Shown one piece after another: positions 26,966 to 61,334 of a stretch of 64,000 nucleotides of DNA (positions are counted from its first letter, which is position 1; each line of letters opens with the position of its first letter). The translations under genes were made by a program, and so were the position numbers. Origin of the DNA: Brassica napus (lineage: Eukaryota; Streptophyta; Magnoliopsida; Brassicales; Brassicaceae); contig NC_063451.1 of NCBI RefSeq assembly GCF_020379485.1, positions 22,302,630 through 22,366,629 on the forward strand, read 5' to 3'. The notes beneath the pieces are model-generated. The model ran no database searches. It saw only the letters and a list, made by a program, of their open reading frames with translations, and was not told where the DNA came from.

Positions 26966-27400
26966 GAGCTGAAGTATCAGAAGACCCAAGGCAAAACAGT
27001 TGGAGATTTATGTTGCTTATTGATATTTTTTAGATTTCTGAATGTAACAAGAAAGCATTTTACATATTCTGGATGACTTTACAAAACAAAAAAAAAATAG
27101 AAAAAATGTTATAGATGATTGGAAAGCATTTGGTAATTTTTGGATCTAGCAATGTTTAAACTTAAAAATGAACTTAGATAAAAAAAACTTAGTGACTTTA
27201 AGGTTTAGTAAGAATATTGGTTTAGACGCTAGGCTGAGGAGAATCATTTGTTAAGTCAAACACATAAATTTACTTAAACCTAAATTATATACGATAAAAT
27301 TGGAAAACATGTGATAATTTCTGGATATGCTTCCAGAAATAATAACTTGCATGATTCAAATTGTTTTGGAAGGTTTAGTATATAATTAGGACAACTATCC

Positions 27401-27725
27401 TTAATAGTACTTAGTTGATATAAAATAACAAACCTTAACACACAACCAACATATTCCATGAAAAGCTCTAATCTTGTCGATGAAACTTTTGAGTTTACGA
27501 GTATTTTCTATGGAGATTGGGAGAAAATCTTCAACAATACTTTTTAACTCTAAAAAAATTCCATAGATCAAAGTTATAGCTTCCTCTTGAATACGGAAAT
27601 CTTCAGAAACCATCTTCAGCAAATCTTCATACTGAAGATCTTCTTCTAAGTGAATAAAGGATGTAGTCATATTCTTATCAACCGAGAACTCCCACTGGAA
27701 ATATTCCTTTAAACTCCATTCTCCA
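27401..27725 (-). pseudogene. MURA-like transposase N-terminal fragment
   Basis: On the minus strand the frame reads QWEFSVDKNMTTSFIHLEED, then YEDLLKMVSEDFRIQEEAIT and a further 40 residues. A W-x-F-x-VD stretch, a short strand and the YEDLL-x-MV-x-ED helix fit the small N-terminal domain of plant MuDR/MURA transposases. The catalytic domain and zinc finger are absent. This assignment is by pattern only. Confidence 0.45.
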
Positions 27726-28040
27726 CAAACACAAAAAAAACTTCAACCATATTTCGAAAATCTGTTAAAAATATCAAAACCAAATCTCAAAATGATCAAC
27801 CACAAAGACATTTAACTAAATATTCCAAAAAAATACTGAAGATCTTCTTCTAAGTGAATAAACGATGCAGTCATATTCTTATCAACATAGAACTCCCACT
27901 GAAAAGATTCCTTTGAACTCTATTCCCCACAAACACAAAAAACTTCAACCATATTTCGAAAATCTGTTAAAAATATCAAAACCAAATCTCAAAATAATCA
28001 ACCACAGAGACATTTAACTAAATATTCCAAAACAACTCAA
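27628..28040 (-). repeat. Tandem duplication of 207 bp
   Basis: The block ATACTGAAGATCTTCTTCTA through ATTTAACTAAATATTCCAAA occurs at 27628-27834 and again at 27835-28040 with few changes. The second copy repeats the start of the transposase-like frame (WEFYVDKNMTASFIH). Confidence 0.88.
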
Positions 28041-28608: not shown

Positions 28609-29109
28609 AGAGAAAATGACTATGATAGCACTAAAATTTTTTTTGTCACAAATATAGCATCTAAGAATAAAAATGACCAAAATAGCACTTAATGTTTTAT
28701 CAAAAGAGATAAATATACACTTATACCCCAATGGTAAATTAATTTAGACATTAGGATTTAGAGTTAAGAGGTGGGGTTTATGATTTAGGGTTTAAGATTT
28801 AGGGTTTAGGGTTTAGAGTTTAGGGTTTAGGGTTTAGAGTTTAGGGGTGGGGTTTAGGGTTTAGGGTTTAGAGTTAAGGGGTGGGGTTTAGGATTTAGGG
28901 TTTAGGGTTTAGAATTTAGGATTTAGGGTTTAGAGTTTAGGTTTTAGGGTTTAGTGTTGGGGAGTGGGGTTTTGGGATAAGATTTCAAATTTTGAAAAAT
29001 AAAAAAAATTAAATTTTTCAAAAGATAAAATGCTATTTTGGTCATTTTAGTTTTTGATGGCTATTTTTGTGACATAAACTTAGAAATGTGCTATTTTGGA
29101 GATTTGTCG
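28609..29109. mobile_element. MULE-type MITE with telomere-like core, 501 bp
   Basis: Termini of about 75 bp are inverted: left AGAGAAAATGACTATGATAG with TTGTCACAAATATAGCAT, right the complement of CGACAAATCTCCAAAATAGC with TATGTCACAAAAATAGCC. TTTATTTA flanks both sides (28601-28608 and 29110-29117). The centre (28743-28962) is made of degenerate TTTAGGG repeats. The same terminal family occurs at 62.5 and 62.9 kb. Confidence 0.8.
28743..28962 (+). repeat. Degenerate plant telomere-like repeats
   Basis: Many TTTAGGG units interleaved with TTTAGAG, TTAAGGG and GGGGTGGGG variants. It lies inside the MITE at 28609-29109, so it is a transposon component and not a chromosome end. Confidence 0.9.
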
Positions 29110-42285: not shown

Positions 42286-42551
42286 CTCTTAGAGTTTTGT
42301 CGAGAAAGGGGGAAAATGAGAGAGAAGAGAGGGAACCCCGATTAGAGAGAGGGAAAACAGAAAATATTAGCTATTTTTTACTAAGTGTTTCGTGGAAAAG
42401 CTAATTTTAGCTTCCCGCTTAGAAAAACTCTATCATAGCATTTATATAATGCTAACCTATACTAGAAAAAAAATTCACTCATCAACGACAGCAGTTCAGT
42501 GAAACGTGCTATAACAATGTGCTATGAATAGCAACTTTTTTTGTAGTGTTG

Positions 42552-43582
42552 TGAAGCTGTGCTTAGGAATGGCTCCTTTAAACCAAACCACATCGACCCA
42601 ATCTTGGATATCATTGCGCGGTCTAAGCACTTCCCAGGTTGTGGATGACCTGAAAACACGTATAGGGGAATTACCAGCAACCCATTCATATTCATCAATA
42701 ACATCAACATCTAAGGGAAGGTTAATCGTTGTAAGGTGAGCATGTAAATCAACTTCCTGTTGTGATCTAGGGTGTGGTAGAGACCAAACCGAGTTTCTGA
42801 TAGCGTCTGCCACTACAGCTTGCTTCCTGACTTGAGGGGATCTAGGTCCCGAAGGACCAATGTGCGTTATGAGCTGGCCCACTGGAGTCCATACATCATA
42901 CCAGAAACTGGTCGCGAGTCCGTTACCAAGGCGAGTTCTGATGAATTGAAGGGTGAGCGGTCTCAGGTCAAGTAGTTTCCTCCAGGCTAAAGAGTCTGTA
43001 GCTGAAGCTGTAATGTTCCAAAAGGACTGGCCATTCAGGTGAGCGCTCCAATGCCAGTCTACCCACAGCGAGGGAGATTTAGATAATAAGGTCCATATAA
43101 ACTTTAAGCATAGCACCTGGTTCCATGTCGAGAAGCTTCTAAGGCCGAGACCACCTTCTTCCTTTGGGAGACAGACAGTAGTCCAAGCAATTTTTGAATT
43201 TTCTATACTTCCTGACCACAAGAACCGGGAGCATAACGATTCAATGTTCTCGATACAGCCCTTAGGAAGAATGAAAGCTAAGATCCAGAGTTGACTGTGC
43301 CAAAGATGACAGTCTTGAGGAGATGCAATCTGCCCGCAAAGGACATGAGCTTTGCTGACCACGACTAGAAGCGCGCGGTGATCTTGGTCATCAGTGGAGC
43401 ATACTCTGAGATTTTGAGCTTTCTGGCTATGAGCGGTAGGACAAGGTATCTAATTGGGAATTGACCGGAGGGGAAACCGTAGCTATTGATTACTGCTGTT
43501 TCAGATTGGCAACTCCAGAGGTGAACATGTCAGTTTTGGTTGTATTCATGTGGAGACCAGACCAAGAAGCAAAATCATCTAG
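42552..43582 (-). pseudogene. Nested LINE, block 2: RT thumb to zf-RVT
   Basis: The minus strand reads GLHMNTTKTDMF, then FPSGQFPIRYL and LMSFAGRLHLLKTVIFGTVN across a stop and a frameshift near 43360. It continues with FILPKGCIENIESLCSRFLW, CLPKEEGGLGLRSFSTWNQV and GNGLATSFWYDVWTP. The last codons, WFKGAIPKHSF, end exactly at the CACTA target site. This is the usual order between the palm and the C-terminal zinc knuckle of L1 ORF2. Confidence 0.92.
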
Positions 43583-43782
43583 GCATTTGATAGGCCATGG
43601 ATTTTACCCATTATTAGCCATGGTTTATACGTGTTTTAAGATATATTTACTATTATATAGTGTCTATTTAGAGTAATTACAGGTTCAGGTACTAACTGGA
43701 AGAAAATGATGTATTTGGAGCTATTTGGAGATCTTTTGAGCTTTGCTGGAAATAGGAGATGGTCGACGGTTACCAAGAAATA

Positions 43783-43838
43783 TCGACCGACGGTTACCAA
43801 CAAATATCGATCGATGTTGAGCTCTTCTCATTGATCGA
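43783..43838 (+). repeat. 24-bp-step octamer array, 5' LTR part 1
   Basis: TCGACCGA at 43783, TCGATCGA at 43807, TTGATCGA at 43831. The 16-bp spacers do not resemble each other. The matching 3' LTR cluster is at 59118, 59142 and 59166. Confidence 0.85.
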
Positions 43839-44459
43839 CGACGAAGCCACACGAGAGTTAATGACAAATTAGAAGTTTCAAGTCTCACAAAAGTTTCAAT
43901 AATTACATCTTAAGTCCCTGGCCGCCTGTTAGGCTATTTATTAGTGTTTTGTATCATTTTAGAGGCAGACTTGCCTAGAGACCTTTTAGACCTAATTTGG
44001 AAGAAGCAAGAAGCCACCATTGAAAGGAGAGAGTTTAGGATTAGAGAGATAGATCAATACTGCAAAACAAAGAAGATCTTGAACTCCCTTGCTTTCACTT
44101 ATTTTGTTGCTTACTTTTATTGTTTATTTTATTTAAGTATTACTCAGACCATCATAACTATGTATTTCATGAATATGTCTGAGTAGTCCTTACTGTTAGA
44201 TTTAGGTTTCTCAATAGGTTGATAAATGTATTACTGATACAAACAATTGTTAGGGTGTTTAAAAATATAGTTCTTCATAAGTTTAGGATTGATCACCATT
44301 TAAACTTAGATCTTAGGATTAATTGAGATCAAGTCATTGCTTGACTCAATACCTGAAAATAAACTAGTATGATCTAACTGACTAGATACAGACGAGAGTT
44401 GATCTAGTGAGTTAGAGAATATAAATTAAACCTGTCCGTAAAGCTTTCTGGAAGAAGCA

Positions 44460-44539
44460 TCGATCGACGCAGCGATAGCCCTGTCGATCAATATTTTGAA
44501 AGGTGTATCGATTGATATTTGTAATGAATCATCGATTGA
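44460..44539 (+). repeat. 24-bp-step octamer array, 5' LTR part 2
   Basis: TCGATCGA at 44460, TCGATCAA at 44484, TCGATTGA at 44508 and 44532, all exactly 24 bp apart. Confidence 0.88.
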
Positions 44540-44933
44540 CACTTTCTCGTGATTGACATACGAGAATTGAAATCCGAGATCTAGATTAGATAATCAGATT
44601 GATTATATCTTATTTTGAATTCAAGAACAATTAATATCAATAAACCCTAAAAACCCAATTTAAGTTTTACTTGTCGTACCTGAGAATATACATGAATCTA
44701 GCTATTCTCCCAACTGTTAACAACCTCAAAACAAATCAATCGAGCAATAAACTTGCTCACAAATCCATTTTCTGCTTTAAAACTTATAAACCAATTAATC
44801 TAGATTTATTTCAAGACCATAATCTATTGTGTAATCCTAGAGTCTCTGTTGATTTGATCCCTAAGTACTACATCTGAACCTCTTATTTGAGAGAGTAATT
44901 CACTCCTTAGGGTAATTTGAGTGATATCAAATT

Positions 44934-44951
44934 TGGCGCCGTTGCCTGGGA
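44934..44951 (+). other. Primer binding site, tRNA-Asp
   Basis: TGGCGCCGTTGCCTGGGA lies four bases after the 5' LTR. It is complementary to the 3' end of plant tRNA-Asp(GUC), including CCA, with one mismatch. Athila-clade elements are known to use tRNA-Asp. Confidence 0.88.
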
Positions 44952-45055
44952 CTCTTTCTTATTACCATTATATTACGTTTAGAATTCAGTCTAGATTTTG
45001 TTACTAAATTTGCTAAAAGTCTTCCCTCTTTTCCTGCCGACACAGTAACTTAAAG

Positions 45056-46225
45056 ATGGAAGATATGAATTTCGGACGGATATCGATCAACGAAACAACA
45101 ACAACATCGAGCAACAAGTCGACGGCAAAATCGATCGACGGCGCACATCAAACATCGATCGACACCCTGCCGGAAGCAGGTAAGTTTTCTCTTACCTATA
45201 ATACTAATGAGGGAGTAGTCCTAGGAGAACCTAAAGGTAAACTAAGCAATGTAATTAACTCAATCATGAATGAACAGGGGACTGCAATCCCTGTTAAAAT
45301 TAATTTGATCTCAAAACGAGATCATGAAATAAAATTACCTCTGCAAGACTACTTAAACCCTGGGAGGACCTATTCCAATAGGTCCGCCATTAAATTACCA
45401 AAAGATGGTACCAAGAAATCCGGGGTCAGCCTCGAATACTTAGTCTTGGTACGTCAAAACCCTTTCCGTGGAACCGTCACAGAACACCCACACGATCACA
45501 TCGAATACTTAGAAGATATGATGGATGACGAGTACAATCGCTGTAAAATCTTTCCATTCTTCTTAGAAGGCGATGCCAGAAAATGGCTAGACCAACTACC
45601 TACGGGTTCTCTAACCTGCTGGAAGGAGATGAGGAATACCTTCATTAATCAATTCTTCGATGAGGCGTGTTACTGGGATGTAAGGAAGAAAATCTCCACA
45701 TTCCGTCAAGGTCCACGGGAATCATTCAGAAACGCATGGGAGAGATTCAAGAGCTATCAACTTGAATGTCCCCACCATGGTTATTCAAAACCACAACTCA
45801 TTAATACCTTTTACGGAGGTATTAACTTGCACTACCAAATCACGCTTGATACAGCCAGTGAAGGGAGCTTCAGTACCAGGAACCCTGAAAATACAAAGCG
45901 TTTGATAAAGAATGTAGCTACAGGTAGATCCTACGAAATGATGGACGTAGAGCGAGGAAGGAGAGTTGACTCGATGGATGGGCCACCTTTTGCAAAAATC
46001 AAAGAATCTCTAGATTCGCTTCATTCTGTTCTAGCGGGACAAAACCAATTTGGGATTTACCAAATTGACGATGATACCCTTTCTGAATTAGAACAACAAG
46101 TAAACTTCGTAGATATCCCAACCTTGAAAGATAGGTACCATATCCCTAATCCCAATAGCTTTACCCAAAATTACGATGCTACTGTTGGATCACGCCGAGG
46201 CAGAGCGAAATTTAGAATAAACTAA
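45056..46225 (+). CDS. Gag protein of the Athila-like element
   Basis: An open frame of 389 residues starting at the first ATG after the primer site. The retrotransposon gag (capsid-like) domain lies at about residues 165-280, with GDARKWLDQLPTGSLTCWKE, RNTFINQFFD and FRNAWERFKSYQLECPHHGY. The N-terminus shows an 8-residue rhythm, SIN/SSN/SID/SID at residues 10, 18, 26 and 34, produced by the 24-bp octamer array in the DNA. The frame ends at 46225. A further gag-pol linker continues in other frames at 46247-46474 and 46771-47031, so indels have broken the original longer frame. No zinc knuckle is visible. Confidence 0.88.
   Translation: MEDMNFGRISINETTTTSSNKSTAKSIDGAHQTSIDTLPEAGKFSLTYNTNEGVVLGEPKGKLSNVINSIMNEQGTAIPVKINLISKRDHEIKLPLQDYLNPGRTYSNRSAIKLPKDGTKKSGVSLEYLVLVRQNPFRGTVTEHPHDHIEYLEDMMDDEYNRCKIFPFFLEGDARKWLDQLPTGSLTCWKEMRNTFINQFFDEACYWDVRKKISTFRQGPRESFRNAWERFKSYQLECPHHGYSKPQLINTFYGGINLHYQITLDTASEGSFSTRNPENTKRLIKNVATGRSYEMMDVERGRRVDSMDGPPFAKIKESLDSLHSVLAGQNQFGIYQIDDDTLSELEQQVNFVDIPTLKDRYHIPNPNSFTQNYDATVGSRRGRAKFRIN
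45083..45162 (+). repeat. 24-bp-step octamer array in gag
   Basis: TCGATCAA at 45083, TCGAGCAA at 45107, TCGATCGA at 45131 and 45155. It reads in frame as Ser-Ile-Asp/Asn every eight residues. Confidence 0.88.
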
Positions 46226-46657
46226 GCTTTCACGGGAAATCGCAAAATGGCCACTGATCTGAACGGAAAGATAGACATAATCTACAGTGAGCTAATGAGG
46301 AAGTTCGACGCTTTAAGTGAACACATTAAGAGACTGGACGGTCAAGTCGCGGAAAACGCGACCGCCATCAAAAGGGAGACAGGACGTCTCCCTGGGCGGA
46401 CTAACGCGAATCCGAAACGTCAAGTTAATGCTGTTTTACTAAGGACGGAAAATGCCTCATCCCGAGCACAATAGAGATCAACAACGCAGAAAAACGTGCT
46501 AAAGTTGAGAAAACCGGTGAAAATAGGTCACGACCAATAATCCTCGATAGTCCCAATCCCGAATCAGATACACCTCGGGAGAAAGAGCAGTCCAATACTG
46601 AGGAAGTAGCCATTGACCTCGAGGAGGAAGAAGAGGAGTCGGAAGAAGATGTAGAAA

Positions 46658-46737
46658 TCGATTGACAAGAAGGAACCAACGTCGATCGACCCACTACGGT
46701 AAATATCGATCGACAAACTGGGAACAATGTCGATCGA
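46658..46737 (+). repeat. 24-bp-step octamer array in gag-pol linker
   Basis: TCGATTGA at 46658, TCGATCGA at 46682, 46706 and 46730. In the frame of the following open segment it reads as Val/Ile-Asp-Arg, one register off from gag. Confidence 0.88.
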
Positions 46738-46991
46738 CGCTCGGCTCCTGCTGAACCAGCCATAGAGAGAGTGTATAGGACTCTACCACCCTTTGCTCCT
46801 AAAAAGACACAGACTAAGCAAGAATTAGACAAGGTGATCTGCAAGAAAGCATTCGATAATATCACGTTGGAGATGCCATTGAGTGATGCCATAAAAGTTT
46901 CATCATCAATAAAGAAATATGTAAAGGACATGGTATCCAACAGCTTCCCAACTGCTGAACGCAGCGTCATGATGGTTTCTGAGGAAGTAAG

Positions 46992-49900
46992 TGTTGGGGT
47001 CAAAATCAGTCGCGACGGAATCAATGTTTAAAAGTCCCCGGAAAATATTTCTCCCAATATAAATTTCGTCTAATTTTTATTGAAAAGGTTATACGACGAG
47101 TTATTGATATATTTTATCGACAACAAGACGCAAACATTGTTGGGGTCAAAAACGGTTATCTCGAAATAAACATCCCAAAATTGCGTTTCGGTACGAAAGC
47201 TTTCTCAACACACTCTCGACAAAAGCTCTTGAGAAAAAGATTCGAGAGAAATGGATCACAGAACCAAACACGCAGTCCAACTCGTTCGTTCGGACCTTTT
47301 GAGGTGCAGAACTACACAGACGCGTCAGATGGTTAGCTATATATGAAGACCTTCCCATGGTTTTATTGAGTCTATATTTTGACACAAGATATATCTTTGA
47401 GTTAGCTTTCCAATTCCACCGGTCTGAGGTCAATCAGCATCATGTTGCATAAGTTATGCCCGTTTTATTGAAGGGTGGACATAGCACACCGTCCAGCTCG
47501 GCGGATGCCCGAGCTGGATCAACCAAAATGACCAGCTCGGTGTTACAGGCTGGAATCTGGGTCGCCCAAATGGTTGTTGGGGGTTCAAATCGGATCAACC
47601 AAAGATCTGACCGGTTGGTCGATATGGTCTGAAATCGATTGTAAAACCTGAAACAAATGAAAGATTAATGAGATTTGAATGTTATGAAGAATAAACTATG
47701 ATAAATAAACAAAGGTAAATGATAGATATGGCGGAATCAAGCTGCTGGATGTGTATCACTCTCAGCTTGATCAAAAGATGGATGGAAGTGGATTTGCTGA
47801 TGAATGTTTGATTGAATCTCTCAATCTGATGGATGATGCAAACGATGTGATTGACTCTCTCAATCTGTGTACTGAGCTTGTTTAATTTTCACAAACAAAC
47901 TAGACTCACAAAATCAATAGAACAACAAAGAATCTCTCTTTGAATCCTAAAGACCAATATTTTATACAAAGAACAATCTTTGATAAAAACTGAATAAACT
48001 TCTTATTAACTTGGTGATTGAGGGTGTTATTTACAATAGACGTCTAGGAGCTTATATAATGCTCAGATACAAAGGTCCTAACGTTCTAAAAAGATAAAAA
48101 AGAAACAAATCAAAGACAAATTAAGAAATCGAAAAACTAGCCGTTGGAGCCTTTTGTTGGATTTTGGCTCCAAGTAAGAAACTTTTCCTTGTTTGAACCT
48201 GGACGGTTTTGAGGGATAAGAGAGCTGCCTTGGGACCTTCTTGGATGCTTGATAGGTGCTGATCTCGTCCACAGCTTGATAGGAAAAGAGCTGTTGGACA
48301 TTAATGTCGGTTTGCTCCATATAAGGCAGGTTGGTGTAAATGAGGATCCTCCTGATCCAATGTTGGCTGGTGCATGGTATGAACTTGTTGAACTCCTTTT
48401 GGATGCCTATGATGTCTTCTGAAAGCCTTGGTTTAGTCTGGATGTCTTCTGGTCGGAATTGGTTGGGTTGGAAAGGATTAAACCGAAAGATTGTCCAATC
48501 TTTCCATAAATAGCTACGGTGGGTTTTATAACTTCTTCAAGGATCCGCCTGATCCTATGGGTTCTGGTGCAGATAAGGACTTCTGAAATACCTCCTGATT
48601 GGTTAAAATAATCTCCTGGTTCCCATAAATAGCTCTGGGTCGAACCAAACTGAATTGGTTGAAGACTTTCCATAGATGACGTCGGTTTGGCCGGTTCTGG
48701 GGAATTGATAATAACTCCTAATTTTCGTGGCCATTTCTCCTGATATTGGGCTTTATTTAAAGCTGATAAACTCCTATTGACTCCTATGATGGGCTTTTCT
48801 TCAGGCCGCTCCTTACTTGAGCTTGAATCTCCTTCTAAAGTCGGGTACTCGCAGATGGACGGGCTGAGAATCCTCTGATTGTAAAACTCATAACTTCTGT
48901 CTCCGTGAATATTTTGGCCCGATTCCAATTGGCATAGACTCCTTCTTGAGTGTAGAATCCATAAAAATTAGCCTCGTAATTTTGGCTCGTTCGCTGAGCT
49001 GGACCCGAGACGGATTCAGCTCGGCCATTTGCCGAGCTGGACCGGTCCAGTTCGGCGAATGGCCGAGCTGGATCGATCGGAGTCCGTTTTCGCCTCGTCC
49101 CCATAATTCCTCTCCCAAAGATTGCATTGAACTCATTCTTGTTTCTTTTCGATCGGAGTCACCGTTGGAACTTTACCATTTAAAAACCGCAAGAACTCGT
49201 TCTCTCGAATAACATTTGGATTGATCGTATAAAATGGCAACGGTTAGCTGAACACCTCGAATTGCCTAAGCTATACGGGGAATTGGATGTTCTTTGGAAT
49301 CAACGTTGTTTCGAAAGCGCTTTTTTTATAAAATCGTAAAAATGCATGTCGGAAAACTGTCCGAAAGGGCCCAGAACGCGGCTAAGAGCCCACTTACGAT
49401 TTTACACCAAATCAAGTCCAATCTTTATGACGGTTTATCTTTTGTTATGCAGGAGAAGATAAATGTCAAGTTCGGAGGATAAATGTGAAGTTTCCAAAGA
49501 TAAACACGAAGATCGAAGGAAAATGTAATATTTCCGCGAAGTGATAAACTCGACCATGGGCAGAAAGGAAAAGAGTAAACCGCCTCAAGGAGGAGTATAT
49601 AAGGATGTCGAGGTTGAAGAGGCAAGTGGACAATTCTTTTAAACTTAGAGCTCTCTGCACTTAGAAACTCTTAGGCATTATTCTCGACATGCTTTATTTC
49701 TATGACTGGCACCCGATTACCAGTCAAACGCGCACAACCAGTTCGATCTCTTGGTTCACTCTTGAACTACGTTTGGCTTGATCCTTGAAAGGGGTACGTA
49801 GGCAGCCTTTCATAAGGTTCAGTCCAAAATCAATCAAAACCTTGTTCGTATATTTTCCGTCTTCTGTTATCGAGCTGCGACTCAACTAGGTTTAAGGTTT

Positions 49901-50165
49901 TAGGTTGCTAGAACTAGGTAATTCGCTGACAGCTCTTGCGGCTGAAGCTTTTATGATCTCTTGTAATGATCGCAATGCTCTTACACGGATTCGAAATAAG
50001 ATCTACCTTTTCTATAAATTTGTTTTGTTATCTTTTCATATATTCCACATTTATTTGGTCACTTTTCGTTGGCTCTCGCAGAGAATCCGGGACCTCAGGG
50101 AAAGTTAGGGTTTCCTGACTTTCCTCCCATTACGGAAATCGACGGTGTGAATTTAGATTCCCACA
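46992..50165 (+). mobile_element. LTR-like insertion, 3174 bp (probable solo LTR)
   Basis: It starts TGTTGGGGTCAAAATCAGTC and ends GATTCCCACA, the TG...CA pattern, and is flanked by GTAAG at 46987-46991 and 50166-50170. Near its right end it has GAAAGGGGTACGTAGGCAGC, a phrase common in plant gypsy LTRs. No pol or gag frame is present, so it is best explained as a solo LTR of a different family, possibly with its own internal insertion: the block of about 1.4 kb from 47573 has a second TGTTGGGGGTTC start and different composition. The minus-strand frame 48407-48928 is not recognised. Confidence 0.7.
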
Positions 50166-51013
50166 GTAAGTGCAATAATCCAAGGCCAAACCCTGGTCAA
50201 GAGACCTGATCCGGGCAGTTTTGTTCTAGATTGCAATATACGAAATAAAAGTTTTCCTCGATCCCTCTGTGATTTAGGTTCCAGCGTAAACCTCATGCCA
50301 CACTCTGTCGCGACATCCCTGGGATACGATGAGTTCAAACCTACCAAAATAACTTTGGTTCTTGCCGATAGATTCGTTAGAGTACTTGAGGGAGTACTTG
50401 ATGACGTGCCAATAAAGATTAACGACTGTCATGTACCTACGGATTTCGTGTGCTAAAATATCAGAATGAACCGAAAGATCCCCTCATTTTGGGTAGACCA
50501 TTTCTAGCTACAGCTGGTGCGATCATCGATGTCAAGGAAGGTAGGATATGTATAAACATTGGAAACATTCCGATGATCTTAGACATGAAAAAGCTGATAA
50601 GACGACCCTTAATCGATAAACAAACTTCCTACGTTGACGATATCTTTGAGTTGGCTGAAGAATCTTTCATAGACATGTGCTTAGACGATCCCCTGGAAAA
50701 AGTACTCACGTCCAGTGAGGAAGAAACAATTAGTGTTGACTGCAGAGCTGAGGAATACACACGATTGATGGACGCAAGTTTGGAAGTAGCGAATGTTGAT
50801 GACATGGAGGATGACACTTCGGAAATAAACGTCGATCGATATTTGGAAAAAGCTGCCGATCGACAACCATCTCCTTTAGAAGATTGGGATCCTGAAAAAG
50901 CACCAAAGATTTAGTTAAATCAACTATCCGCTGGACTCAAATATGCTTTCTCTATAAAAATTCCTACCCCGTAATCGTGAACGCCAACCTGACCAATAGA
51001 GAACTTGCGTTGT

Positions 51014-52317
51014 TGATATCACTCAAATTACCCTAAGAGTGAATTTGCTCTCTCAAATAAGAGGTTAAATTGCAGTACTTACAGATCGAAACTACAAGGA
51101 GCTAGGAAACCTAATGAATATAATATGATTTGTTAAGTAATGTGGTTTAATGATTTAAATGTAAAATTGCAGTTTTGTGAGCAAGTAATTGCTCGATTGA
51201 TTGGTTGAGGTTTTGGTGCTTAAAACAAAATAGCTAGACTTAGGGTTTTTATTCATGAAACTTGGGATTATAATCCTACAGATGCCTAATGAGTTGCATG
51301 CATGATAATGTAAAGCTCAATTACTAAATCAACATGTCAATCATCTCTCGCATGTCTGGACTTGTCTATTAACTAGATCTAATGACCCAAACAAATGTGT
51401 TCGGTCAATAGCAGTGTTGATCGATGATCCTATAGGGATATCGATCGATACACCTTTCACTCCGTCGATCGATTATTCAGTTTTGATATCGATCGACGCG
51501 CTTCTAGTTAAGCTTTATGCGCGGGTTGAAAGATGCTTACTAAGCTCACTAGATCAGCTCTCGCCTTACTCTTAGCAAGAAACTTAGCTCAGTTAGAATA
51601 GTTTCAGGATGAGAATGAAGCTATCGCTTTTATCTAACAATCCTAGGTAGCTAATCTAGAATCAGACATTAATGACAATTCTAATGATTATTATCATAAC
51701 TCAGCAATCTATAGTTGGGGCTAATCCCTCATAACCTATTTAAACCCTAAAATCTAACAATGAAACTACTCAGACATAGCCAAACAATTTATGAAAGCAA
51801 TTAGGTAAGAAAACTTCATTAGAATAGTAAATAGATATTAATGGAGTTCCAATCACAAATATAACTTTGAATCTTCTCTCCAATCTATCAAAATCCTAAA
51901 AACCTTTTGCTGAAAGTAGTAAAAACCAGAAACGCAAGAAAAGCACACTTTGCCTCTAACATGGTGTCAAAGCTAATATATTTAGGTTAAAACTCGTCAG
52001 GGGTAATCTTGTAAATTGGTGAAGACTTGGGCTTCAAGAAGGATGTGACCAAACAGGCTTTCTGTGCGCTTCTCTGTCGATCGATGTTCTGATGTGAACA
52101 TCGATCGATATTTGTTCCTCAATATCGACCGATGGTCGAGCTCGATGGTCATCTCGGGTGCTTGCTCCAAATATCTCCAAAATGCTCCAAAATCATCACT
52201 TATCTCCAAATCACTCATGATCTTACAAATAAAATAAATAGACTCTATAATATAATAATTAGTAGTAAAAACACCTATAAACCATGGGTGAAATTGGGTC
52301 AAATCCATGGTCTATCA
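51014..52317 (-). mobile_element. Reversed solo LTR of the same Athila-like family
   Basis: The minus strand begins TGATAGACCATGGATTTGAC and ends GGGTAATTTGAGTGATATCA, matching the LTRs of the host element in inverted orientation. Flanks are GTTGT (51009-51013) and GTTGC (52318-52322), one mismatch apart. It is diverged from both LTRs of the host copy, so it came from another family member and then lost its body by LTR recombination. It splits the protease-RT linker, whose frame resumes after the insertion. Confidence 0.93.
51417..52132 (-). repeat. 24-bp-step octamer arrays in the reversed solo LTR
   Basis: One cluster at 51417, 51441, 51465, 51489 (TTGATCGA, then three TCGATCGA) and a second at 52077, 52101, 52125 (two TCGATCGA, then TCGACCGA). 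They correspond to the two clusters in the full-length LTRs. Confidence 0.88.
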
Positions 52318-53600
52318 GTTGCTATTGAACAAACTGCGAAAATATAGGAAAGCCCTCGGATACTCTCTCGAGGATATTCCTGGTATTTCTCCAGATCTTT
52401 GCATGCATCAGATTCACCTAGAAGACGATTCAAAATCGTCAGTGGAGCACCAGAGGCGACTAAACCCAAACTTGAAAGAAGTTGTTAAAAAAAAAAAATC
52501 AAGCTTCTAAACGCAAGGGTCATTTACCCGATATCGGATAGCAACTGGGTTAGCCCTGTACATGTCGTACCAAAAAAAGGCGGAATCACTATGGTGAAGA
52601 ATGATAAAAAGGGGCTCATCCCTACGCGAACTGTCACCGGACATCGGATGTGCATCGACTATAGGAAGTTGAACGCTGCCACAATAAAAGATCACTTCCC
52701 TTTACCCTTCATTGATCAAATGTTGGAAAGATTGGCAAATCACCAATATTATTGTTTTCTTGACGGTTATTCCAGATTTTTTCAAATTCCTATACATCCT
52801 GACGATCAAGAAAAGACCACTTTTACATGCCCTTACGGAACATTCGCATACCGCAGGATGCCTTTCGGTCTTTGTAATGCTCCCGCCACTTTCCAACGCT
52901 GCATGATGTCAATCTTCACAGATATGATAAAGGATTTCATGGAAGTTTTAATGGCGATTTCTCTGTGTATGGATCCAGGTTCAAAAATTGTCGCGATAAC
53001 CTATGTAAACTCTTGGCAAGATGTGAAGAAAAGAACCTCGTTCTAAACTGGGAAAAATGCCACTTTATGGTTAACGATGGGATCGTCCTAGGACATAAAG
53101 TGTCCGCTGCTGGCGTAGATGTAGATCGGGCGAAGATTGAGGTAATGACCGGCTTGCCTGCACCCATGAACGTAAAAGACGTGAGAAGTATTCTCGGGCA
53201 CGCCGGATTTTACAGAAGGTTCATACAAGATTTTAGCAAAATCGCTAGACCTCTCACTTCCCTCCTCTGTAAAGAAGTTAAATTCGACTTCACACCATAA
53301 TGCGTAAAGGCTTTTGAGGAAATAAAGAAAGCCTTGATAACTGCCCCCATCGTACAAGCACCTGACTGAAATCTTCCTTTCGAAATCATGTGCGATGCGA
53401 GCGATTTCGCTGTTGGAGCAGTTCTAGGCCAAAGAAAAGACAAAAAGCTACATGCAGTTTACTACGCCAGTCGAACACTCGACGAGGCACAAAGGAATTA
53501 CGCAACAACAGAAAAAGAACTGCTTGCTGTAGTTTATGCATTTGAAAAGTTTCGCCAATACCTGGTTGGCTCGCGAGTCATCGTCCATACTGACCACTGA
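52318..53600 (+). pseudogene. Athila-like reverse transcriptase and RNase H start
   Basis: The linker resumes with RKYRKALGYSLEDIPGI. The RT shows HRMCIDYRKLNAATIKDHFP, LDGYSRFFQIPIHPDDQEKT and TFAYRRMPFGLCNAPATFQR. Just where the catalytic F-x-DD motif belongs (about 52948-52960) bases are missing: the reading slips from EVL to a new frame at YGSRFKNCRDNLCKLLARCE. The thumb follows (GHKVSAAGVDVDRAKIEVM, ILGHAGFYRRFIQDFSKIAR) and, after stops near 53300 and 53370, RNase H with MCDASDFAVGAVLGQRK and [19 protein letters not shown]. The active site and frame are lost, so it is inactive. Confidence 0.93.
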
Positions 53601-55339
53601 CCACGCTGCGATTAAATATTTAATGCAAAAGAAAGATGCGAAACCACGACTCCTGCGATGGATCCTTCTACTTCAAGAACTTGACATAGAGATTAAAGAT
53701 AAAAGAGGAGTAGAAAACGGAGTTGCAGATCATCTTTCCCGGATACAAATAGAAGATGGCGTTCATATCGATGACTTCTTACCAACGGAAAACGTTTACC
53801 AAACGGATTCATTCGTCGGAAATGTATGTCTCACTTCCGAAGAATTGTCGATCGACGACAATGATGCTATGTCGATCGATGACATAGATACTATGTCGAT
53901 CGACACTCCAGATGATCTAAACAAAAATATAAATCCCATAACCCTCACCTTTGATATAAAAGTAAACGTCGCATACAACGAGCTGCACTCTGACCATGAT
54001 TCACCCGTAGATGAAAGTCTGCATCGGGAAGTGCACGCAGTCAAAAAAGGTTCAAGGAGCAGACCTTGGTACGCTGATATAGTGAACTATCTAGCTGCTG
54101 ACATAGAACCCGAAGAGCTGAGAGGGTATACAAGGAAGAAGTTTTTAAGAGAAGTTAGGAGATATCACTGGGACGAACCATATCTCCACAAGCACTGTTC
54201 TGACGGGATGTATAGGCGCTGTGTCGCCGAAACTAAAACACCCGACATTTTATTCCAATGCCATGGATCCGACTATGCTGGACATTTTGCAACCTTTAAA
54301 ACGGTATCAAAAATTCTTCAAGCGGGATTCTGGTGGCCGACTATGTTTCGCGATGCTCATGCGTTCATAGCACAATGCGACAGATGTCAACGGAGAGGAA
54401 AAATCAGTAAAAGACATGAAATGGAACATAAATCTATTCTAGAAGTAGAAGTATTGGGGGATAGATTTCATGGGTCCTTTCCCCTCCTCCTACGGGAATA
54501 AATACATTCTGGTCGCAGTTGATTATATGTCAAAATGGGTCGAAGCAGTAGCTTCCCCAACAAACGACGCATCGGTAGTTATTAAGCTTTTCAAAAGCAT
54601 TATCTTCCCGAGATTTGGAATTCCCCGAATAGTCATAAGTGATGGTGGATCCCATTTCATTAACAAAAATTTTGAAGGACTACTCCGGAAGAACAGAGTG
54701 CATCATAGAGTTGCTACACCCTACCACCCACAGACGACGGGCAGGTAGAAGTCTCAAATCGACAGATCAAAGAAATCTTAGAAAAGACTGTAGGAACATC
54801 TAGAAAAGATTGGTCTAGAAAATTGGACAATGCACTCTGGGTTACCGGACTGCTTTCAAGACTCCCTTAGGAACCACTCCATTTCACCTGCTTTATGGAA
54901 AATCATGTCACTTACCGGTTGATCTGGAACACAAAGCAGCCTAGGCTATTAAATTATTAAATTTCGACATCAAACCAGCAGCCGAAAGGAGGCTCATACA
55001 ACTTAACGAGCTGGATGAAATAAGACATTTAGCCTACGAGAGTTCAAAGATATTCAAAGAAAAACGAAAGCATATCATGATAAAAAGATCATCTCCAGAC
55101 ACTTCGAACCAAATGATCAAGTGCTGCTGTATAACTCTCGCCTAACACTATTTCCTGGAAAACTCCGATCTCGTTGGTCAGGTCCTTTTACCGTTGTGAA
55201 CGTCAATCCTTATGGAGCTATTGCGCTTATAAATAATAAAGGAGACGAATTCACGGTAAATGGCCAACGAGTTAAACACTATTGGGCTAAACCACAAATT
55301 AGCGGGCCTTTACACTTTGACCCCCCTCCCGATAATTAA
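53536..55339 (+). pseudogene. Athila-like RNase H end and integrase
   Basis: A shift at about 53597 leads into [20 protein letters not shown] and [18 protein letters not shown]. The octamer array at 53848-53903 encodes [19 protein letters not shown]. The integrase zinc finger is present ([35 protein letters not shown]), but bases are lost near 54460 before the core. The core keeps [19 protein letters not shown] and [20 protein letters not shown] and breaks before the catalytic Glu (PYHPQTTGR, stop). The C-terminus resumes at 55121 (LRSRWSGPFTVVNVNPYGAI) and ends at 55339. Confidence 0.93.
53848..53903 (+). repeat. 24-bp-step octamer array in pol
   Basis: TCGATCGA at 53848, 53872 and 53896, in frame as Ser-Ile-Asp, between the RNase H and integrase parts. 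Confidence 0.88.
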
Positions 55340-56037
55340 ATCGAATATCGAGTCAAGCTAAAGACTTAAAATAAGTGTTGAATGGGAGGCAACTTATTTC
55401 TAGTTTTTAGATATTGAGGATTTAGCTTAAATTTCAAAAAAAAAAAAAAACCTTCGGAAAACGTAAAGTCTGTCGATCGACGAAGACCCCTCTTCATCGA
55501 TCGACATTAAATGAACAGACACGGGCTTATATTAAGTTGACACTTAAGTCGACATTCACACAAACCCAAAAACCCTACAAAAACACTCCCATCTCTTTTC
55601 TCTCTCATTTTTTCGGCCAAATCCAACGATTCTTTCGCTCAATCCACTCGATTTTCAACCCTCTATCCGCTTAGATCGCTTAACTCACACATCATCACGG
55701 TATGAACACTGAAATTTTCGTTCTTGCTAGGGTTGAAATAGAGAATGAGTTAGAACCGAGATTTTGGGGCCTATATCGATCGATTTGTGCTAAAGGAGTG
55801 ATAGAATAAGGATTACTGATCGATTAAACCGATTATATATGCCATTCAAATCGAATTGCATCAATGGGTTTTTGCAGGTTCCCGTGAAGGGGAAATCGAT
55901 CGATGATACACAACTTTCATCGATCGATTGTCACACCGAATATAAATCAACATCGACCCGTTACCATTGATCGATATTGCACCAAACCATCGAACCGAAC
56001 TGAATTCCTATTTTTCGTTTATGGTTTTTGGTTACAG
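55340..56037 (+). other. Pol to env-position spacer with octamer clusters
   Basis: Non-coding between pol and the third ORF. It has an A run at 55437-55450, octamer copies at 55473, 55497, 55776, 55896 and 55920, and ends in a T-rich stretch with TTACAG just before the ATG at 56038, which would suit a splice acceptor for a spliced subgenomic mRNA. Confidence 0.6.
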
Positions 56038-57447
56038 ATGTATGAAAGGAGGACGAAGCGGAGGTTCGAAGTAGGCGGCAGTAGCACAGCTCCGCCACCA
56101 CCACCGGGTCGCGACCAGTACCCTTGGCCACGCGAGCGCGAAGATGAACCTATCCCACTATTTGACCACTTCGAGGACACACACAAAGCGGCGAAGAGCT
56201 CGGCATGTAGAAACCGTGCGATCAAGGACACGTGGGACGACTATGACAGCATATTCTACAATGAGTGGCTGAAGGTCTCCATCGAACCGACGCGGTTCGT
56301 CGATCCAGACGTGATCCGGGCTTTGGGCATCAAATCGGACCTCGAGGACTTGTTCGAGGGGCTGGGTATGGGGAACATGGCCACTAACACACAGGTTCTC
56401 TACCCGGAGCTGGTTCGTCAGTTCATGGCCAGGGTGAATGTCTATTATGCCAACGAGAGGGCAAAGAGAGCTAACAAGGGTGTCTTGACCTTCTTCATTC
56501 GCGGCATCCGCTACAGAGTCCCTCTATCGACTCTCTGCACTATCTATGGGTTCAAGAACGAGCGTCAGTACGCCATCATACCCGACTTCGCAGGGATATC
56601 GACATTTTGTGGGCACATAGCCACCGGCTTCTTGGACTCCGCCAAGACTCTTCAGACGGACATCCGTCACCCGACTCTGCGCTACTTCATGAAGGTCCTT
56701 GCCAACACTATGTTGTGCAAGATGGAACCTAGTAAGGTTCGGGTGCAGGAGCTCACATTGGTCTATTACGCGGTGAGGAGTTTGGTTCACATGGAGGACA
56801 TCGCGGAGCCCGCATATGACGTGTGGCCCAACATTGGAGCCGTATTGGCTGAGCATCTAGTCAAGCTCAAGATGAAGCCATTCCAGTCAAAGGGAAGGAA
56901 GAAGGAGACGGTCGGGAGCCTACTTACCCCAATTTTCCTACATTGTAGAGTCCCATTAGACGATGCTGAGATGGATGACCGGATCGTCTACATGGATGCA
57001 GCGCATCTCACAAGCACCCAGTGGCTCAAGGAAGACCGCGACTGGTGCTTCAGGGATGAGGACGGCACACGCTTGGCGAGGCTGCCATTTCGTACACTCA
57101 CGGATTTCGACCATGGCCTTACCAGCATTAAGTTTCGCCCTGACCCACGCCTCCTCCGAGCCCCAGCGACCATGCCGCGACGCTACACGGTCCAGCGACC
57201 TGGAGGACCTCAGCCGCATCAGCCCGAGGCCGCACTCCCGCCATTCCCACCTATGCCAGACATGTCTACACGCCCTGAGGGAGATTTCCAGCGTGTCGTA
57301 GTCGATGCTCTCACTGCCATCTGGGCTAGAGTATCAAGATGTTGCTGTTTGAGCAGGAGGAGTGTGCGAGCCAGCCCACCGTTAGCAGCAGGACCATCAC
57401 GCCAGCGCAGAGGCCCCTCCAGCGACGAAACAACTGATCAGGACTAG
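56038..57447 (+). CDS. Athila-type third ORF (env-position protein)
   Basis: An intact frame of about 469 residues located between pol and the 3' LTR, where Athila-clade elements carry their extra ORF. It resembles the plant ATHILA ORF family by pattern: RAIKDTWDDYDSIFYNEWLK, then LYPELVRQFMARVNVYYANE and GVLTFFIRGIRYRVPLSTLC, and a long helical middle to about residue 300, with a proline-rich tail. The start is ATG at 56038, right after TTACAG. The frame is open further upstream to 55903, but that stretch lies in the octamer cluster and is probably leader. I see no signal peptide or membrane segment, so a true envelope role is not supported. It is the only long frame of the element that stayed undamaged. 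Confidence 0.8.
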   Translation: MYERRTKRRFEVGGSSTAPPPPPGRDQYPWPREREDEPIPLFDHFEDTHKAAKSSACRNRAIKDTWDDYDSIFYNEWLKVSIEPTRFVDPDVIRALGIKSDLEDLFEGLGMGNMATNTQVLYPELVRQFMARVNVYYANERAKRANKGVLTFFIRGIRYRVPLSTLCTIYGFKNERQYAIIPDFAGISTFCGHIATGFLDSAKTLQTDIRHPTLRYFMKVLANTMLCKMEPSKVRVQELTLVYYAVRSLVHMEDIAEPAYDVWPNIGAVLAEHLVKLKMKPFQSKGRKKETVGSLLTPIFLHCRVPLDDAEMDDRIVYMDAAHLTSTQWLKEDRDWCFRDEDGTRLARLPFRTLTDFDHGLTSIKFRPDPRLLRAPATMPRRYTVQRPGGPQPHQPEAALPPFPPMPDMSTRPEGDFQRVVVDALTAIWARVSRCCCLSRRSVRASPPLAAGPSRQRRGPSSDETTDQD

Positions 57448-58922
57448 TCCTCATATCTCTATCCCTATCTTCTTATGTTTTCTTTTACTTTCGTACTATT
57501 AGGATTTGCTTTCGAACTTATTATTCTATGTTATGTATGGAATTTATCTATTTTGCTAACCTTGCATGTGTTTGAATTGTCTAACAGAGCTAACCTAGCT
57601 GACTGATATGATTCTATGATGAGTTAGACACCTTGATACACTGCAGCTATCACAGAAATTTTTGGTCTCTGCGCTATCGATCGATGAAGAGGTACTTATA
57701 TCGATCGACGGTGATGCGCTTATGTCTATCGATGGAGAGTTGTTTATATTGATCGACACTCGAGACAGAGGGTACGAGCATTCTTTTCTTTTGTCTAACA
57801 TCTAACTTAATACTTATTATTCATTCTCTAACCAACCAATCTTAGACCGAATATCACTGGGAACAGTGAAATTTAAGTCGGGGGGAGGTACTCACAAACG
57901 TTAGTTTATTCATGAATTTTTAAATCATATTTTCAAAACATAAAGTTTTTTATTAAGTCAAGAAGGGGATTATGGACTTATTAGATTTTTGCTTGTTATC
58001 TAACCACTCTTTAGCACTATTCTAGACTTACTGATTGCAGATAGTACTAAAATTACTAAAGTGGATCAACTTGTCAACTATATTACACTTGCTGAGATTG
58101 TTTGAAGGAACCAAAGCTGACCTCCAACACTAAAACTTGACACAACTGCTTGTCTTGGGGCTTGGTATACACGGGATCAGATTCTTCAAACAAGTCTGGA
58201 AGGTAAAGCCTTGTGTAGATAGATTTATCACCCTCTCTCTCTCTATTTTCGAAATTTTTTTTTATTATATATACATATCTATTAGAGATATATTAGGAAG
58301 GGATTCGATCATGACTTGGTGACTACAACCATTAAGGCTTGCTTCATAAGAATCCTATAGGTAAAGGATTAGAACATGACTTGTGGCTACAACCATTAAG
58401 GCTTGCTTCACAAATAATCCTAGGATATAGGTCAAAAAGAAGTGAATAGGACTTGGTGGCAACCACCATTAAAGCTTGATTCATGGAAGCATGTCCAATC
58501 TTGGTCAATGATCTTGCAAATATAAGCAGACTTTGACTAAGAGAGAAAGTTAGCAGAGAGAGAGAATAGGAATTAATGTTTCCCTGCAGGTCCAAATACT
58601 TGTTTGAAAATTCTTGCATCCTGTGATCGATACTCCCAAGTTAAAGTCTGCCCTTTTTTATTTATGCTAAGAAATGAGATTGGTAGAGGAGAATGTCAGA
58701 CAAGATTTGCTAAGTTGTTAGCTAGGTGAATTTGGTTGCTATGCTAGGATATGGTATAATGTGCTTTTGTGATTAGGACTTCTTAGATGTGGATTGCAAG
58801 ATTGTAGAAGTGATTATTCTAAGTTTAAAATTGTGTGAGTCTCTGCTGTCTTCAAACCTCTTTCAGAGAGACTGCTAGTATGTTTTGCTTGAGGACAAGC
58901 AAAAGAGTAAGGCTGGGGGAGT
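57448..58922 (+). other. 3' internal non-coding region of the Athila-like element
   Basis: About 1.5 kb without genes. It carries a four-unit octamer array at 57677-57756, three imperfect repeats of 65-75 bp around TACAACCATTAAGGCTTGCT at about 58310-58490, and at its right edge a purine-rich tract (AAGAGTAAGGCTGGGGGAGT, about 58903-58922) that fits the polypurine tract for plus-strand priming directly before the 3' LTR. Confidence 0.75.
57677..57756 (+). repeat. 24-bp-step octamer array, 3' internal region
   Basis: TCGATCGA at 57677 and 57701, TCTATCGA at 57725, TTGATCGA at 57749, in non-coding DNA after the third ORF. Confidence 0.88.
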
Positions 58923-60277
58923 TGATAGGCCATGGATTTTACCCATTATTAGCCATGGTTTATAAGTGTTGTAAGATATATTTACTATTATATAGAGTCT
59001 ATTTAGAGTAATTATAGGTCCAAGTACTAACTGGAAGAAAATGATGTATTTGGAGCTATTTGGAGATCTTTTGAGCTTTGCTGGAAATAGGAGATGGTCG
59101 ACGGTTACCAAGAAATATCGACCGACGGTTACCAACAAATACCGATCAATGTTGAGCTATTCTCATCGATCGACGGCGAAGCCACCCGAGAGTTAATGAC
59201 AAATTAGAAGATTTCAAGTTTCACAAAAGTTTCAATAATTACTTCTTAAGTTCCTGGCCGTATGTTAGGCTATTTATTAGGGTTTTGTATCATTTTAGAG
59301 GCAGACTTGCCTAGAGACCTTTTAAACCTAATTTGGAGGAAGCAAGAGGCCACCATTGAAAGGAGAGAGCTTAGGATTAGAGAGATAGATCAATACTGCA
59401 AAACAGAGAAGATCTTGAACTCTCTTGCTTTCACTTATTCTGTTGCTTACTTTTATTGTTTATTTTATTTAAGTATTATTCAGCCCATCATAACTATGTG
59501 TTTCATGAATATGTTTGAGTAGCCCTTACTGTTAGATTTAGGTTCTCAATAGGTTGATAAATGTATTACTGATACAAAAAATTGTTACGGTGTTTAAAAA
59601 TATAGTTCTTCATCTATTTGTGCTTAAAGCTAAGTTTATGATTGATCACCCTTTAAAATATAGTTCTTCATCTATTTGTGCTTAAATATAGTTCTTCATC
59701 TATTTGTGCTTATACCTGAAAATAAACTAGTATGATCTAACTGACTTGATACAGACGAGAGTTGATCTAGTGAGTTAGAGAATATAAATCAAACATGTCC
59801 GTAAAGCTTTCTGGAAGAAGTATCGATCGACGCAGTGATAGCCCTGTCGATCGATATTTTGAAAGGTGTAGCGAATCATCGATCGATACTTTCTCGTGAT
59901 TGACATACGATAGTTGAAATCCGAGATCCAGATTATATAATCAGATTGATTATATCTTAGTTTGAATTCAAGAACAATTAATATCAATAAACTCCTAAAA
60001 ACCCAGTTTAAGTTTTACTTGTCATACCCGAGAATATACATGAATCTAGCTATTCTTCCAACTGTTAACAACCTCAAAACAAATCAATCGAGCAATAAAC
60101 TTACTCACAAATCCATTTACTGCTTTAAAACATATAAACCAATTAATCTAGATTTATTTCAAGATCATAATCTATTGTGTAATCCTAGAGTCTCTGTGGA
60201 TTCGATTCCTAAGTACTACATCCGAACCTCTTATTTGAGAGAGTAATTAACTCCTTAGGGTAATTTGAGTGATATCA
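58923..60277 (+). repeat. 3' LTR of the Athila-like element
   Basis: 1355 bp, same ends as the 5' LTR. It has two indels worth noting: a local triplication of ATAGTTCTTCATCTATTTGT at about 59602-59715, which replaces 5' LTR sequence, and a 16-bp loss inside its octamer array (steps 24 and 32 instead of 24, 24, 24). Confidence 0.95.
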
Positions 60278-60282
60278 GCATT

Positions 60283-61334
60283 CAGAAATTCTGTGGAGAC
60301 TGTTGCTTGACCCGTCAAAGAAGACCATTACGTTGTCCACAAACATGAGATGCGAGATCTTGAGCTGTTCTGATCTCGGATGGTATCCAATGCTTCCTGC
60401 CTCATTGCGAGGGAATAGCAATCGGGATAGACACTCCATCGCAAGCACAAATAGATACGCCGATAAAGGGTCGCCCTGCCGTATTCCTTTAGTACTCTTA
60501 AAGAATCCTCTTGAGACTCCATTTACCGAGACAGAGAAGGACACTGTAGATAGACAATCCGAGATCAATCTGATATAGCTGTCTGGTATGTCCAGGGCTC
60601 GAAGGGATGCCAGAATAAAATCCCTTTACGAGATCAGTAGCTAGGAGCACATTTTCTGCTAGAAGCTGGCCCGGGAGGAAAGCCTGCTGTGATTTTGAGA
60701 CCATAAGAGGGAGGATCTCCTTTAGCCTGGATGCAAGAAGCTTGGAGATAACTTTGTACACTGTATTGAGGCAAGATATGGGTCTGAAATCCGTAGTCAG
60801 AGACGCGTTCGGCTTCTTCGGTATGAGAACCAGGTTTGCCGAGTTCCATTGCTTAAGCAATTTGCATGTTCTAAAGAATTCCAAGATAGCTTCTGTATTT
60901 TCAGGGCCAATAACAGACCACACAGAAGTGAAGAAGTCCGCTGAATAACCATCCGGACCCCCTGTTTTATTCTTGGGCAGAGAGAAAAAAGCTTCTTTAA
61001 TATCATCCGCAGAGAAACCCTTTTCGAAGCTAGCTACATGTTCAGCGTAGCATTTGAAATCAAAGAGGAGATGAAGGTCACTCTAGATGAACATATGGTG
61101 AGAAACCGGACTACCAAGAAGATCAGAAAAGTAATCGACACACAATTTTAGAATTCCCGCTTGAGAATCAACCTGTTCCCGAGACTCCGACATAAGGAAA
61201 TGAATGTGGTTCATGGCCTGTCTTGAAGCAGCATATCTGTGAAACAGAGTTGTATTGCCATCGCCAAAGGATAGCCAGTTAATCTGCAACCTCTGAAAGA
61301 AGAATGCAGCCTCTGCTGTTGACAATTCATCCCT
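60283..61334 (-). pseudogene. Nested LINE, block 1: linker and RT palm, broken
   Basis: Reads on the minus strand RDELSTAEAAFFFQRLQINW, FGDGNTTLFHRYAASRQAMN, then LVLIPKKPNASLTTDFRPIS, LNTVYKVISKLLASRLKEIL and SQQAFLPGQLLAENVLLATD. Directly after DLVKG about 40 codons are missing, including the first catalytic Asp motif, and the frame changes. It then resumes with RLISDCLSTVSFSVSVNGVS, GIRQGDPLSAYLFVLAMECL and a mutated active site FVDN in place of F-A-DD. The endonuclease was never copied (5' truncation). Inactive. Confidence 0.93.

Follow-up and report, generated by a model that had tools for sequence, protein, structure and literature searches.

What keeps one short palindrome in place, at one fixed step, along the whole length of a plant retrotransposon? 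ATHILA elements are abundant in the heterochromatin of Brassicaceae. One such element, a degenerate ATHILA-type Ty3 long terminal repeat (LTR) retrotransposon, occupies 16.7 kb of a 64,000-nucleotide window of Brassica napus (assembly GCF_020379485.1, contig NC_063451.1, positions 22,302,630 to 22,366,629; coordinates below are those of the window), and the palindromic octamer TCGATCGA recurs along it in clusters whose members start exactly 24 bp apart. Comparison of the sequences suggests that each cluster is probably a series of protein-binding sites, 12 bp long and dyad-symmetric (YRTCGATCGAYR), that are arranged at the 24-bp step and maintained because selection acts on the replicating element. 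Part of this reading, judged from the relatives compared, is that related ATHILA-type elements in Brassica and Raphanus share such arrays.

A palindromic octamer on a 24-bp step

The window holds 27 exact copies of TCGATCGA, all at 43807–59886, and none in the remaining 47.3 kb, which bears out the original count of about 25 copies in the element with none noticed in the other 47 kb. Dinucleotide-preserving shuffles of the element (n = 300) gave a mean of 0.41 copies and a maximum of 3, and among the 256 palindromic octamers TCGATCGA ranks first within the element, with 27 copies against 5 for the next. The exact 24-bp step described at the outset holds as well: 12 exact lag-24 pairs are present, compared with 0.04 for random placement (maximum 3 in 20,000 trials) and 0.29 after jittering of every octamer by ±30 bp (maximum 4 in 20,000 trials). 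Without the 3′ LTR and an LTR nested inside the element, 18 octamers and 8 lag-24 pairs are left. When combinations of 8-mer and lag with dissimilar spacers are ranked over the whole window, TCGATCGA at lag 24 is on top with 11, the shifted and lag-48 forms of the same octamer have 4, 3, and 3, and every other listed pair has at most 2. All 40 unit positions given previously were recovered, 38 of them with at most one mismatch and two (45107 and 59142) with two mismatches, and exact octamers beyond that list were found at 55776 and 59879. At 55967, 47 bp past the unit at 55920, the sequence TTGATCGA with YR flanks (Y, pyrimidine; R, purine) forms a near-unit whose phase is off by 1 bp relative to 55896 and 55920; it is likely a further unit shifted by one base.

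The conserved unit is longer than the octamer. Across the 35 units outside the 3′ LTR, the base at −1 is always a purine and the base at +8 always a pyrimidine (35/35 each), Y at −2 and R at +9 are each found in 32/35, and the middle twelve spacer bases carry little information. The 38 phased units with zero or one mismatch give the same picture (R at −1 and Y at +8 in 38/38, Y at −2 and R at +9 in 35/38). By comparison, unphased one-mismatch matches have R at −1 and Y at +8 in 6/12 and 5/12 cases within the element and in 6/10 and 6/10 outside it; both flanks are obeyed by the two exact unphased octamers (2/2 and 2/2). These flank positions lie outside the octamer, so they played no part in choosing the units. 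Because the flanks keep YR on either side, the unit can be written as a 12-bp dyad, YR-TCGATCGA-YR, followed by about 12 free bases. The claim that spacers within a cluster are unrelated gives way for the two flanking bases on each side; it also has to be softened in that spacers are slightly more similar within than between clusters (5.76 compared with 4.84 of 16 positions, permutation p = 0.003). We take this similarity as a trace of tandem duplication.

Conservation between LTR subfamilies and among related proteins

The clusters had been ascribed to a single retrotransposon, but LTRs of two subfamilies are present, since the nested LTR belongs to a related subfamily. It is 73–74% identical to the element’s own LTR in two stretches aligned by BLAST and 57% identical over 1272 aligned columns, and each of the two LTR clusters has a counterpart in it at the corresponding place. 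Against the 5′ LTR, identity is 49/56 in the octamers, 30/60 in the mid-spacers, and 678/1216 in the rest of the LTR; against the 3′ LTR, the corresponding values are 43/48, 14/36, and 682/1206, where spacers after a cluster’s last unit and at a deletion are omitted. (Compared with the 5′ LTR, the 3′ LTR has lost 16 bp at this deletion, which removed one cluster-2 unit and shifted the last one.) Between the subfamilies, octamers are therefore 88–90% identical, mid-spacers 39–50%, and other LTR positions 56–58%, so that in the comparison of octamer with spacer substitution, which the original prediction put forward, octamers come out as the more conserved at this level. When the octamer mask is slid along the alignment, identity peaks at 0.88–0.90 at offset 0 and is 0.42–0.52 at mid-spacer. 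Within the element’s own LTR pair, 5 of 48 octamer bases differ compared with 84 of 1278 elsewhere, and four of the five octamer differences are at CpG; there is no sign in these sequences that octamers are protected after insertion. The octamers are thus conserved between subfamilies with no sign of protection after insertion, and it appears to be in replicating lineages that the motif is retained.

Relatives of the element were collected by three protein searches, two with the element’s proteins and one with a profile of relatives. Of the resulting 218 distinct proteins, 171 are named as Brassica (B. cretica, B. napus, B. oleracea, B. rapa, and B. carinata) or Raphanus, 37 are nameless, and 10 come from other plants (Quercus, Cardamine, Capsella, Arabidopsis, Vigna, and Tanacetum). 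The named matches among the 80 from the gag profile search are all Brassica or Raphanus apart from one Vigna and one Tanacetum, and the matches of the search with the ATHILA open reading frame (ORF) include Capsella, Cardamine, and Arabidopsis arenosa. In the two Quercus matches from the gag search, phased SID or [VI]DR units were not seen; no gag relative was confirmed in viral contigs or genome contigs, and a pattern search of the viral contigs gave no matches.

The octamer is readable in three frames, as SID, [VI]DR, and RS, and an 8-residue step, the counterpart of its 24-bp periodicity, is also present in the relatives. Among lags of up to 50 residues in the 218 proteins, those divisible by 8 make up 190/202 for SID, 274/285 for [VI]DR, and 9/9 for [YCHR]RS[IMT]. 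The YR rule also predicts neighboring residues, which were scored in distinct phased contexts of 168 relatives (contexts not independent by descent). The residue before SID falls in the NYR set in 114/131 phased contexts compared with 23/49 unphased ones, and the residue after SID agrees in 125/131 against a background of 0.72. After xDR, the predicted residues (Y, H, Q, C, W, or R) occur in 79/116 phased contexts compared with 54/154 unphased ones, and the first residue of xDR is I or V in 112/116, although nine residues are allowed. At the gag N-terminus (37 distinct ungapped sequences, after 19 further anchors were dropped because a methionine was absent at that offset), entropy is 0.47 bit in motif columns compared with 1.65 in spacers (p = 3e-5), and ten sequences below 80% identity give 0.57 and 1.72 bit. 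A test of codon choice was set aside, as the units had been picked by DNA and one of its background stretches (46228–47028) was read with 7 stops.

Mapped back onto the window by tblastn (within 40 bp), the phased units of the 218 proteins occur at six of the nine distinct cluster places: the gag N-terminus (68 proteins), gag–protease (71), protease–reverse transcriptase (2), RNase H–integrase (1), after the ATHILA ORF (5), and LTR cluster 1 (3). None mapped to LTR cluster 2, 55473, or 55896. Outside this count, a pair of SID units with an eight-residue step directly precedes the methionine of the ATHILA ORF in the protein P0134. Unit numbers vary among copies. In the RNase H–integrase linker, P0143 has six units compared with three in the window, and its six include three identical ones, which points to tandem growth. 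The view that the arrays are not the product of tandem-repeat slippage is accordingly half right: together with the spacer similarity, P0143 suggests that they were apparently born by 24-bp tandem duplication, and it is mainly the dyad that has been kept afterwards.

The host element and its surroundings

The element is flanked by the 5-bp target duplication GCATT (43583–43587 and 60278–60282), and its LTRs, which are 91% identical, end in TG...CA (TGATAG...ATATCA). Pfam matches follow the order Retrotrans_gag, RVT_1, RT_RNaseH, Integrase_H2C2, and ATHILA (PF03732, PF00078, PF17917, PF17921, and PF03078). The order of gag, reverse transcriptase, RNase H, and integrase with an ATHILA ORF after pol, together with the LTRs and the 5-bp duplication, places it among ATHILA-type Ty3 elements. 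The Pfam scan of the element gave no protease match and no integrase core match, and the protease-like part is a label assigned by eye. The gag and pol frames are broken by stops and frame breaks; the ATHILA ORF is open over its full length and matches PF20167 below the cut-off only, besides PF03078. Clusters occur in LTRs, coding DNA, and non-coding DNA, as originally described; those at 51417–51496 and 52077–52132 belong to the nested LTR and not to the pol of this element (Table 1). Four of the nine distinct cluster places fall in gag-pol reading frames, non-coding DNA being among the others, and the clusters in coding DNA sit outside the domains recognized by Pfam.

Table 1. Coordinates of the element, its frames, and its phased clusters.
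Feature	Position	Strand	Details
ATHILA-type Ty3 LTR retrotransposon, degenerate, 16.7 kb	43588–60277	+	LTR pair, target duplication, Pfam
5′ LTR	43588–44929	+	two phased clusters
LTR cluster 1	43783–43838		units 43783, 43807, 43831
LTR cluster 2	44460–44539		units 44460, 44484, 44508, 44532
gag frame	45056–46222	+	first Met 45056, in-frame stop after 46222; PF03732 E 1.5e-22; 111 related proteins
gag N-terminal cluster	45083–45162		units 45083, 45107 (2 mismatches), 45131, 45155; frame TCG-ATC-GAY (SID)
Cluster between gag and protease-like part	46658–46737		units 46658, 46682, 46706, 46730; frame RTC-GAT-CGA ([VI]DR)
Cluster between protease-like part and reverse transcriptase	50832–50863		units 50832, 50856
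Nested inverted solo LTR, related subfamily	51014–52317	−	upstream of reverse transcriptase; flanks GCAAC/ACAAC
Cluster 2 of nested LTR	51417–51496		units 51417, 51441, 51465, 51489
Cluster 1 of nested LTR	52077–52132		units 52077, 52101, 52125
Cluster between RNase H and integrase	53848–53903		units 53848, 53872, 53896; SID frame
Cluster 3′ of pol	55473–55504		units 55473, 55497
Cluster 5′ of ATHILA ORF	55896–55927		units 55896, 55920 (near-unit 55967)
ATHILA ORF-1 family frame, open	56038–57447	+	PF03078 E 2.7e-33; 59 related proteins
Cluster 3′ of ATHILA ORF	57677–57756		units 57677, 57701, 57725, 57749
3′ LTR	58923–60277	+	
Cluster 1 of 3′ LTR	59118–59173		units 59118, 59142 (2 mismatches), 59166
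Cluster 2 of 3′ LTR	59823–59886		units 59823, 59847, 59879

Minus-strand reverse transcriptase pieces lie on both sides of the element (RVT_1 at 60275–61082 to the right; zf-RVT below the cut-off at 42496–43449 to the left), and the element was therefore probably inserted into an older LINE-like (non-LTR) element. Between gag and the protease-like part, 48078–49158 holds minus-strand open frames of 107–186 amino acids, the two longest of which had no Pfam match. Elsewhere in the window, a stretch of about 3.9 kb is duplicated in direct tandem at 12246–20041 (98.7% identity over 3906 bp) and includes a gene, present twice, that appears F-box/kelch-like when its translation is judged by eye, several long tandem repeats stand close together at 24477–28032 (periods 184, 186, 103, and 204), and an interstitial array of the telomere-like heptamer GGGTTTA occupies 28774–28958 (about 26.7 copies, 78% match).

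Competing explanations and a possible reader of the array

An old 24-bp tandem repeat could have seeded the ancestor at several places, in which case the octamers would be remnants without present function. The slight similarity of spacers within clusters, the three identical units of P0143, and the differing unit numbers among copies agree with such a history. Octamer and spacer would then be equally old, however, and yet their identities between the LTR subfamilies are far apart; in addition, CpG-rich octamers would be expected to decay faster, CpG being where most octamer differences of the LTR pair lie. Since spacers are unrelated between clusters (4.84 of 16), the clusters were not copied whole from one another, which also counts against this history, and we regard it as unlikely. 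Neighboring palindromes might instead act in RNA, forming 8-bp stems with 16-nt loops for packaging, dimerization, or double-stranded RNA that feeds 24-nt small interfering RNAs (siRNAs). Palindromes in the LTRs of maize Sireviruses are reportedly linked to siRNAs, and an energy model, run with no shuffled control, folds neighboring units as hairpins in most clusters. A stem requires complementarity and not one fixed palindrome, though, and pairing in the spacer interior is at chance level (p = 0.46). Stem-extending positions of neighboring units lack covariation (outer 16/24 compared with 15.8 expected; inner 18/24 compared with 16.7), and flank pairing in the self-stem of a single unit is 21/35 compared with 22.4 expected. 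Symmetric flanks without base-pair covariation favor a protein dyad over an RNA stem, and an RNA function appears very unlikely.

Each unit also presents two symmetric CGs, and phased CGs could recruit host methyl-CpG readers such as the MBD7 complex, which keep methylated DNA expressible; readers of this kind exist in Arabidopsis according to the sections covered of two reports (PMC4416881, PMC5462541). The two CpGs of the octamer suit this idea, but the fixed A-T core and the YR flanks should be needless to a CpG reader, and we give it little credence. Finally, a peptide with an 8-residue period, placed in Gag and the linkers of the polyprotein, would account for the S-x-D columns conserved across the 37 gag N-termini. 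It would hardly account for one DNA word used in three frames and found in LTRs as well as the inverted nested LTR, or for the YR rule, which is a rule of DNA, and such a peptide function is the most remote of these explanations. Maintenance at the DNA or RNA level had been envisaged originally; the RNA hairpins find no support in the sequence, and the DNA level is favored because the word occurs in three frames and in non-coding DNA, its YR flanks lack covariation, and octamers were conserved while spacers diverged.

Several observations weigh against a protein-binding array kept by selection. The LTR alignment owes part of its anchoring to the octamers, and the 48 octamer bases compared within the LTR pair are a small sample. 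DNA-level conservation in the relatives is read through protein frames, and the relatives are not independent. The codon ending in Y that the YR rule predicts before xDR was found in 86/116 contexts compared with 0.80 as background; the misfits are mostly an E preceding the first gag–protease unit, and the window likewise has A at −2 of 46658. Two of the four conserved units at the gag N-terminus encode SSD and S[TIV]D and are hence imperfect octamers, so that peptide-level constraint is possible there. As to a reader protein, AlphaFold predictions for the ATHILA ORF are of low confidence (pLDDT 39 and 36), and its profile had no matches among solved structures.

The closest points of comparison come from other transposons. 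The Mutator-like elements VANDAL21 and VANDAL6 have VANC target motifs, according to the parts covered of two papers (PMC5735166, PMC10398659). In a VANC-type anti-silencing system, the element encodes the VANC protein, which binds the motif and removes DNA methylation. The covered part of PMC5735166 describes a short motif (YAGTATTAY) that is dense in one transposon family, accumulated via tandem repeats and rare in other elements; tandem accumulation within one transposon family is likewise found here. The same text, however, concerns a DNA transposon with a known protein and a non-palindromic, mainly non-coding motif, whereas the present array lies in an LTR retrotransposon, is palindromic, and extends into coding stretches, with four of nine places in gag-pol frames. 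The covered text also uses neither “spacing” nor “periodic” (PMC5735166), and here the step is exactly 24 bp. The RM repeats of Sireviruses (Ty1/copia) are palindromic and CpG-bearing, number 8 to 32 copies, and were suggested to be cis-regulatory; they are located in LTRs and upstream of the env-like gene, as here in both LTRs and at 55896–55927 before the ATHILA ORF, and the Tnd-1 motif ACAATCGATTGT has the ATCGAT core in common with the present motif (PMC2829016, sections covered). In contrast, their core is mostly CGG-CCG, those sections state no constant step and mention coding copies solely at the ENV start in two elements (PMC2829016), and the present element has Ty3-type order with an ATHILA ORF. 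The short interrupted repeat cassettes (SIRC) of Arabidopsis likewise combine short direct repeats with spacers of diverse sequence, and they are enriched in mobile elements, among which ATHILA2 and ATHILA6A are named, but they are heterogeneous 10–29-bp repeats defined by an algorithm, and a single motif or step is absent from the part covered (PMC10342631). The likeness to CRISPR, with its constant repeat and variable spacer of fixed length, is superficial; here the host is a plant retrotransposon and the repeat is 8–12 bp.

A literature search by title and abstract start found no report of such an array, with subscription papers mostly outside its coverage, so that absence from the literature is not proven. 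Among the matches listed, no retrotransposon paper was found by title for TCGATCGA, and the search gave nothing on CGATCG with DAP-seq in Arabidopsis or on 24-bp palindromic tandem arrays in Brassica retrotransposons.

If the clusters are arrays of binding sites, a DNA-binding protein would read them, probably as a dimer and cooperatively on neighboring sites. New sites would arise by tandem duplication of the 24-bp unit, after which spacers would drift and sites would be retained in replicating elements. The most likely use would be control of the element’s own chromatin or transcription, through activation or anti-silencing; this is favored by where the arrays are found, namely in each half of the LTR, close to the ATHILA ORF, and along the element’s body, much like VANC motifs in VANDAL elements. 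Possible readers are a host factor and the product of the ATHILA ORF, the latter being a candidate trans factor by analogy only; we know of no established role for the ATHILA ORF. More speculatively, ATHILA-type elements of the Brassica tribe might have an anti-silencing or transcription system of their own, an independently evolved LTR-retrotransposon counterpart of VANC in which an element-encoded protein, possibly the ATHILA ORF product, would assemble on the 24-bp-phased ladder of 12-bp dyads across LTRs and coding linkers, but we consider this rather unlikely.

Should the arrays hold at genome scale, they would amount to a cis code that extends over an entire retrotransposon and its coding parts, in three frames and at a fixed step. 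YRTCGATCGAYR placed at 24-bp intervals would then be a concrete bait for the protein that reads the array. If the reading is true, it would offer a way to ask how ATHILA elements remain active despite silencing, and it would suggest what the ATHILA ORF may do.

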